This document shows, piece after piece, positions 40,883 through 64,000 of a DNA stretch of 64,000 nucleotides. The position numbers and the translations under genes are program-made. The notes under the pieces are model-generated. The model worked only from the letters and a program-made list of their open reading frames with translations. It did not search any database and had not been told where the DNA came from. The stretch comes from Bacteroidota bacterium (GTDB lineage: Bacteria > Bacteroidota > Bacteroidia > Chitinophagales > Chitinophagaceae): the NCBI GenBank assembly GCA_028875875.1, contig JAGWUV010000005.1, positions 1 through 64,000 on the forward strand, read 5' to 3'. How positions within the stretch are numbered: position 1 is the first letter of the stretch; the number at the start of each line of letters is the position of its first letter.

Positions 40883-40891
40883 TATCCAATA

Positions 40892-40969
40892 GTTTAAGGT
40901 TTGAGGTTTATGATTTTGCGGTTGATAGCAGCCATTCTAATTGTAAACCTCAAACTACAAACTGAAAAC
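40892..40969 (+). repeat. Heptamer-phased palindromic element upstream of DUF4293 gene
   Basis: The left arm has consecutive 7-base units GTTTAAG, GTTTGAG and GTTTATG from 40892. The right arm has TGTAAAC, CTCAAAC, TACAAAC and TGAAAAC (40942-40969). The arms are inverted copies in the sense that GTTTNNN units face NNNAAAC units, including a perfect 12-base match (40899-40910 with 40944-40955). It ends seven bases before the ATG at 40977. See the related elements at 43188 and 63700. Confidence 0.75.
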
Positions 40970-40976
40970 TATTTTT

Positions 40977-43173: not shown

Positions 43174-43187
43174 GAATTTGGAATTTG

Positions 43188-43250
43188 GTATTTGAAAATT
43201 TGGATCTTGATACTCGTCATTTTAATGATATCTTGATCAAACTTTCAAAT
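43188..43250 (-). repeat. Imperfect palindrome between atpD and atpC
   Basis: Reading the plus strand, 43174-43194 consists of GAATTTG, GAATTTG and GTATTTG in 7-base phase. The stretch ATTTGAAAATTTGGATCTTG at about 43190 is nearly the inverse of the sequence ending TTCAAAT at about 43250, giving an imperfect stem of about 22 bases with a loop of about 17. The element ends next to the atpC start codon. It resembles the elements at 40892 and 63700 in arrangement and position, though its right arm is less regular. Confidence 0.6.
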
Positions 43251-43254
43251 GAGA

Positions 43255-63426: not shown

Positions 63427-63696
63427 ATGGGTCGTTCGATTAAAAAAGGTCCTTACGTAGATCATAACTTGGATGGTAAGGTAACTGCAATGAATGATGG
63501 TAAAGCAAAGAAAGGTGTTATCAAAACATGGAGTCGTCGCAGCACTATCACTCCTGATTTTGTAGGCCACACTTTTGCTGTACATAACGGGAATAAATTC
63601 ATCCCGGTTTATGTAACAGAATTCATGGTAGGACACAAATTAGGTGAATTTGCTCCTACAAGGAACTTTAAAGGTCATTCAGGACAAAAGAAATAA
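63427..63696 (+). CDS. rpsS: Ribosomal protein uS19
   Basis: An 89-residue protein ([66 protein letters not shown]). Complete. It is followed by an 81-base gap filled by a heptamer-built palindrome before rplV. Confidence 0.98.
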
Positions 63697-63699
63697 ATC

Positions 63700-63769
63700 G
63701 TTTAACGTTCAAAGTTTAAGGCTTAAGGTTGGGTAACCAACATTAAACTTCAAACCTGAAACTTGAAAC
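63700..63769 (+). repeat. Palindrome of ten 7-base units between rpsS and rplV
   Basis: Ten consecutive 7-mers. The first four are of GTTTNNN type (GTTTAAC, GTTCAAA, GTTTAAG, GCTTAAG), the central pair is GTTGGGT and AACCAAC, and the last four are of NNNAAAC type (ATTAAAC, TTCAAAC, CTGAAAC, TTGAAAC). The two halves are inverted, so a long imperfect hairpin can form. The element begins three bases after the rpsS stop and ends 8 bases before the rplV ATG. Confidence 0.8.
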
Positions 63770-63777
63770 TCAATAAA

Positions 63778-64000
63778 ATGGAAGCAGTAGCAAAACTGAA
63801 AAATTATCCCACAGGTCCCCGCAAAATGCGTTTGCTGGCTGATGTGATCAGAGGTATGGAAGTGGAGAAAGCATTGGCAATTTTAGAATACCATCCTCAG
63901 CACAATGCCACACCTTTGGCTAAATTATTGAAGAGCGCTATCAGCAACTGGGAGCAAAAGAACGGTGGTTCAAATGCAGCAGACAGCAGCCTGGTAGTTA
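63778..64000 (+). CDS. rplV: Ribosomal protein uL22, partial at window end
   Basis: The frame from the ATG at 63778 runs off the window after about 74 codons. It begins [20 protein letters not shown] and includes [18 protein letters not shown] and [15 protein letters not shown], matching the N-terminal part of L22, which lines the exit tunnel. This is the expected gene after rpsS. Confidence 0.95.

Follow-up and report, generated by a model that had tools for sequence, protein, structure and literature searches.

Heptad hairpins, built from 7-nucleotide units set in inverted arms, occupy spacers between the stop codon of one gene and the start codon of the next in Chitinophagaceae and other Bacteroidota. 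As read from the sequences, this format (period 7, inverted arms and stop-start placement) is kept at orthologous junctions and the heptamers that spell it are replaced. The window, meaning the whole stretch of 64,000 nt that was analysed, belongs to a genome of the Chitinophagaceae near Sediminibacterium and carries one such element between rpsS and rplV (Table 1). All heptad hairpins described here are predicted folds.

Table 1. Heptad hairpins of the window and the features that flank the rpsS-rplV element (window coordinates)
Feature	Coordinates	Strand	Evidence
rpsS stop codon TAA	63694..63696	+	ORF 63427-63696; Pfam Ribosomal_S19
5' arm: GTTTAAC GTTCAAA GTTTAAG GCTTAAG GTTGGGT	63700..63734	+	five heptads; lag-7 peak
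3' arm: AACCAAC ATTAAAC TTCAAAC CTGAAAC TTGAAAC	63735..63769	+	five heptads; 25/35 symmetric pairs
Predicted intercistronic RNA hairpin	63700..63769	+	81-nt spacer MFE -15.9 kcal/mol, z -1.9
Unpaired A-rich tail TCAATAAA, belonging to the translation initiation region	63770..63777	+	predicted fold; A-rich context in F. johnsoniae (PMC6847099)
rplV start codon ATG	63778..63780	+	ORF; Pfam L22
glyA-DUF4293 spacer, heptad hairpin GTTTAAG GTTTGAG GTTTATG ... CTCAAACTACAAAC	40883..40976	+	MFE -31.3
atpD-atpC spacer, heptad hairpin with CAAATAC CAAATTC CAAATTC arm	43174..43254	-	MFE -16.7

The 81-nt rpsS-rplV spacer (63697-63777) is filled by an element of ten 7-mers that turns at its centre, correctly located at 63700-63769 by the original prediction. 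Lag-7 identity within the element is 38/63, compared with 16.5 +/- 3.7 (maximum 32) in 20,000 dinucleotide shuffles, and the imperfect palindrome has 25 of 35 symmetric positions complementary, compared with 10.7 +/- 2.9 (maximum 23) in the same number of shuffles. Its lag-7 score is also the highest that any 63-base comparison in the window gives for lags between 4 and 15. Its predicted hairpin begins 3 nt past the rpsS stop codon and ends 8 nt ahead of the rplV ATG, and the fold energy of this element alone is just moderately unusual for its composition (z -1.9). A BLAST search of the element against its own genome returns short weak matches only; the best is a 28-base stretch at E 0.02, so the element is not a conserved palindrome repeated genome-wide of the REP/RAYT kind. 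No Rfam 15 covariance model matches above its gathering score, the one sub-threshold match being to a microRNA model, and a plasmid search yields nothing relevant to the element.

Further arrays occur in the window and across its genome. The original prediction mentioned two more elements without coordinates, which are taken to be those of the glyA-DUF4293 spacer and of the atpD-atpC spacer, the latter being the weaker of the two. Within the same ribosomal operon of this genome, a further heptad hairpin, spelt with a different heptamer, lies in the rpsQ-rplN spacer, and in the rplR-rpsE spacer four CGTAATT units stand ahead of the ATG. Arrays were scored in 1.22 Mb of the genome as 28-base windows with at least 19 lag-7 matches, giving 33 peaks, 31 of them noncoding; the same criterion applied at lags 4, 5, 6, 8, 9, 10 and 13 gives 5, 2, 0, 1, 3, 4 and 1 noncoding peaks. 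Lag 14 tracks lag 7 as a harmonic and lag 11 reflects independent arrays. The noncoding lag-7 peaks merge into 26 arrays, which extrapolates to roughly 75 per whole genome, and coding DNA is almost free of them. The array-bearing spacers lie mostly between co-directional genes (21 of 25). The original prediction was right that the elements recur, that operons tolerate them and that they sit between stop and start codons. Several arrays have no 5' arm and stop only a few bases from an ATG, and mismatches cluster in certain unit columns, leaving some columns fixed and others variable. The lag spectrum over all intergenic DNA of the genome has no clear excess at 7, because arrays make up a small share of that DNA.

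Some further repeats were seen. In the genome of the window, noncoding arrays with an 11-base period (ACATCAAATCC, CCCGAACAAAT) form a separate class with 16 noncoding peaks in 1.2 Mb (for instance at L051:5530, L168:16525, L193:10533 and L204:1761). Around 92-94 kb of contig C10 of G000 (L028, L029, L031), long GTTATAC/GTAATAC heptad arrays alternate with CTTCGACAGGCTCAGC...GCTTGTCGAAG palindromes in what are apparently duplicated blocks. Contig C16 of G000 carries very long ACGTATA/ACGTACA heptad arrays of 65-151 nt (L202:15819, L202:18565 and L203:5680); a single element was probably copied to give the two in L202, which have a common lead sequence.

The same junctions were compared across 80 fetched loci of Chitinophagaceae, whose rpsS-rplV spacers were dereplicated to 45. 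Lag-7 identity in these 45 spacers is 0.483 versus 0.299 after shuffling (z = 20.5), with harmonics at lag 14 (z 11.3) and lag 21 (z 5.1) and all other lags at z 4.5 or below. Hairpin energies under dinucleotide shuffles have a median z of -2.6. The units include GTTTNAN (the window, L103 and L118), GTTTGGA (L080, L082, L083 and L131), GTCTGTG (L064 and L112), GTTATAA (L081), GTTAGAA (L074), ATTTCAA (L070, L078 and L114), CAAAACT (L125) and others. The closest relative compared (G016, 91% in L22) carries a shorter, apparently homologous form of the window element; in several others the spacer is short or holds a plain hairpin without heptads, so the heptad form is not required. The rpmC-rpsQ, rpsQ-rplN and rplN-rplX spacers reach lag-7 z values of 12-14 under composition shuffles, in which A-rich tails lift lag 8 too in some spacers. 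In most species the rpmC-rpsQ spacer measures 12-17 nt; in others it reaches about 93-105 nt and contains an AGCTNNN heptad hairpin. Coding identity of about 86% between relatives is too low for the reliable spacer alignment that a comparison of indel lengths would use.

Period 7 is also spread well beyond this family. The pattern (AAACNNN)3AAAC matches 25 of 60 Chitinophagaceae genera, and the corresponding period-6 and period-8 control patterns match 0 and 14, the latter chiefly genera with true 8-base repeats. Such period-8 arrays, of AAACNNNN or CAAANNNN type, were seen in a few Chitinophagaceae (G064, G059, G066, G009 and G003), so units are not 7 bases long in every case. Phylum-wide, the heptad pattern occurs in 69 of 247 Bacteroidota genomes; it is absent or nearly so in one family sampled with many genomes (f32) and richest in one genus (g85), probably Flavobacterium, whose units AAACTTC, AAACCTG and AAACTTG are the same as those of the window. 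In this genus the arrays form hairpins that lie between stop and start and have the same anatomy as the window element, and strong arrays occupy about 13-14% of co-directional spacers (genomes G139 and G240). The 7-base periodicity that was proposed as a test of the class is far beyond chance both in the genome of the window and across Bacteroidota.

Replacement of the heptamers is clearest in this genus, in which two junctions of G139, fba-accD and hisB-hisH (genes named from sequence, not by profile), were compared with other species; both junctions were picked because G139 carries an element there. At fba-accD, all 28 species compared have a predicted spacer hairpin with a lag-7 peak of 15-26 matches in 28 positions, and 22 of the 27 other species carry an array of equal strength, compared with the base rate of 13-14%. 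These hairpins are spelt in about eight unrelated heptamer families (assigned by eye), and at hisB-hisH most species have a heptad hairpin, in five unrelated families. When family labels are placed on the tree of the downstream gene, fba-accD needs 15 changes over 28 rows (16.1 with shuffled labels) and hisB-hisH needs 11 over 24 rows (12.6 with shuffled labels), so family membership barely follows descent. Between families at fba-accD the entire stop-to-start spacer differs, and not merely an insertion into an older spacer. In one pair of species (G371 and G292), accD agrees at every one of its first 90 nt and is 96% identical further in, and the spacers have no common 11-mer; conversely, in G371, G322 and G331 the 111-nt fba-accD spacer (L272, L273 and L277) is identical letter for letter and accD differs by 4-7%. 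Two explanations of these patterns were tried and rejected. Allelic exchange together with flanks would make gene ends by the spacer more alike among species with homologous spacers, which they are not (permutation p 0.14 and 0.52), a result with which exchange by very short tracts is compatible. A genome-specific vocabulary would tie the fba-accD family to the genome-wide counts of AAAC, AATC and ACTG arrays, and judged by eye the family does not track those counts.

The position of the hairpins within the spacer is narrow. Measured on 72 heptad hairpins at five junctions, the distance from the stop codon to the stem has a median of 5 nt, and that from the stem to the next start a median of 15 nt (quartiles 12-17.5). 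Arms with the in-phase order of units are more stable than arms with shuffled order in 80-100% of cases, which is weak support because the limits of the arms were taken from the observed fold, favouring the observed order. Shine-Dalgarno signals are lacking in Bacteroidota. Initiation in F. johnsoniae depends on adenines at -3, -6, -12 and -13 and needs low structure around the start, from -20 to +20 (PMC6847099), and a hairpin that closes ahead of an A-rich stretch would keep this region open. The hairpin is the best-supported part of the original suggestion of an RNA hairpin that replaces a Shine-Dalgarno signal. The replacement itself finds no support: between the end of the stem and the start there is a median of 15 nt in this class, and 8 nt in the rpsS-rplV element, so that the initiation region stays single-stranded. 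A role for period 7 in placing stop codons in all frames was rejected on inspection, several families having no stop codon in their units.

The reading preferred here, for which belief and doubt are about evenly balanced, is an intercistronic mRNA hairpin in which the fold and its position, not the letters, are selected. The stem would fold up the spacer in its entirety just after the stop codon, as a self-contained hairpin, with a short A-rich stretch (median 15 nt) left unpaired ahead of the next start. Folded in this way, the spacer would be unable to base-pair to the initiation region of a gene without a Shine-Dalgarno signal. The hairpin may also draw stop and start together and may shield the junction from nucleases. 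The letters would be renewed in three ways: arrays may grow and shrink by 7-base replication slippage, template switching inside the hairpin may copy one arm into the other and so keep the arms complementary, and whole spacers may be replaced by gene conversion or by spacer-limited transfer between species. Against this reading, one genome (G043) has many arrays between convergent genes, at 2.6 per kb, where initiation cannot be the reason for them. Nor does slippage by itself account for the concentration of mismatches in some unit columns or for the replacement of whole spacers.

A related and more tentative possibility is that the hairpins are cassettes of fixed format (period 7, inverted arms and fixed distance to stop and start) and free spelling, made and exchanged as units by a dedicated process. 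If so, orthologous junctions of sister species would carry unrelated sequences of identical design.

It is unlikely that the hairpins are mobile or copied palindromes of the REP or MITE type, with many small heptad-hairpin families that spread into or replace spacers and are mobilised by an enzyme in trans. The original prediction of one dispersed sequence family, or of a single small mobile repeat, does not hold, given the weak BLAST matches and heptamers that vary from spacer to spacer within a genome and from species to species at a given spacer; the unrelated heptamers of a single junction exclude one mobile family and are still compatible with many small moving or copied families. Such movement would suit the two length forms of the rpmC-rpsQ spacer and the scarcity of arrays between divergent genes, where they are rarest. 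In G043, arrays (L208-L227, for example L208:15131 and L227:2085) are often framed by inverted ends TAGTGTTATGTCAA...TTGACATAACACTA, resembling a MITE with a heptad body, and consensus heptamers are common to several loci at distance 0-1 above the permuted level (15% versus 2.8%), as they are in G041 (9.8% versus 2.6%). Sharing between loci is weak in the genome of the window (8.6% versus 5.4% permuted), however, and the MITE-like ends were seen in G043 only; no common or inverted ends of this type were found at the window element. The replacement of the entire fba-accD spacer is also unlike an insertion, and heptamer families are not genome-specific, as G322, G371 and G292 each carry a different family at fba-accD than at hisB-hisH.

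Rather improbable is a pure mutational by-product, in which 7-base slippage builds arrays wherever noncoding DNA tolerates them and the hairpin serves no purpose. Many bacteria have an excess of heptameric simple repeats, for which an effect of polymerase-contact size has been suggested (both as cited in PMC4692102). The near absence of arrays from coding DNA and the occurrence of perfect long arrays, such as the AAACTCT tracts of one genome (G173), point the same way. Neutral slippage fits the period but not the persistence and placement of the arrays, which favours selection on fold and position: the proportion of species with an array at fba-accD far exceeds the base rate for co-directional spacers, stems are placed narrowly relative to stop and start, and the 111-nt spacer is identical in three species whose accD differs.

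Little credence is given to a protein-binding array, in which a protein (for example of S1, Csp or Csr type) reads heptamers ahead of start codons, a proposal made by MacGregor for the TAACTGA repeats (PMC4679880). Arrays that lack a 5' arm and run almost up to an ATG, the fixed and variable unit columns, and a position class shared with the TAACTGA repeats, ribosomal-protein operons included (PMC4679880), would suit such binding, but it leaves inverted arms and the copies between convergent genes unexplained. Unrelated heptamers at one junction in sister species mean that sequence-specific binding cannot be the shared property, and a binding array for one such protein is difficult to reconcile with the roughly eight unrelated heptamers of a single orthologous site.

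Searches for noncoding conservation usually look for letters that are conserved. In these spacers the letters are replaced almost freely while a numerical format and a fold stay, in core-gene operons (S10, ATP synthase, fba-accD and his), in a manner invisible to alignment-based searches. The arrays offer a handle on why heptamers, among all repeat sizes, are over-represented in bacteria, and on how Bacteroidota, which lack Shine-Dalgarno signals, keep initiation regions open within long operons.

Heptamer repeats are already known; a description of the site-stable, sequence-swapped hairpin form was not found. The literature search, which mostly did not reach subscription journals, found no account of this combination of features, and searching by the letters of the repeats found nothing relevant among the papers listed. 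One close relative is the set of direct repeats with the heptamer unit TAACTGA in Beggiatoaceae, Cyanobacteria and some Bacteroidetes (MacGregor, 2015; PMC4679880), a study that also remarked on other heptamer repeats in Bacteroidetes spacers. Those repeats likewise have 7-base units, are intergenic, often stand directly before start codons and occur in ribosomal-protein operons, but they consist of one fixed heptamer in direct orientation that is not predicted to fold, whereas the present arrays use many heptamers (GTTTNAN/NTNAAAC in the window element, not TAACTGA), with inverted arms, a hairpin and replacement at orthologous sites. In the P6b stem of the Nostoc trnL(UAA) intron, as cited in PMC3488679, degenerate heptads also pair into a hairpin, with copy-number variation and two sequence classes at one site (Costa, 2002); according to that citation the stem lies inside a cyanobacterial group I intron, at one site and with few classes. 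The GGGAATC and GGGGAYT repeats of Xanthomonas and Nostoc resemble the present arrays as intergenic heptamers with many inverted partners and with fixed and variable positions, and differ in being G-rich and quadruplex-forming, with one motif per genome and a gene context mostly conserved between species (PMC4692102). The STRR heptamers of Calothrix are short tandem heptanucleotide repeats in a genome, described, as far as the citation in PMC4692102 goes, as tandem repeats and not as hairpins with swapped units. Like such repeats, the present arrays have 7-base tandem units beyond chance (with periods 6 and 8 as controls), are noncoding and occur in many copies per genome; they do not share one or a few motifs per genome, as heptamers differ between the spacers of one genome. 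Finally, switched intergenic regions (Piggy; PMC5890482) likewise place unrelated spacers between the same conserved gene pair; those have no shared format, whereas almost all alleles at the present junctions retain the hairpin and its period of 7.
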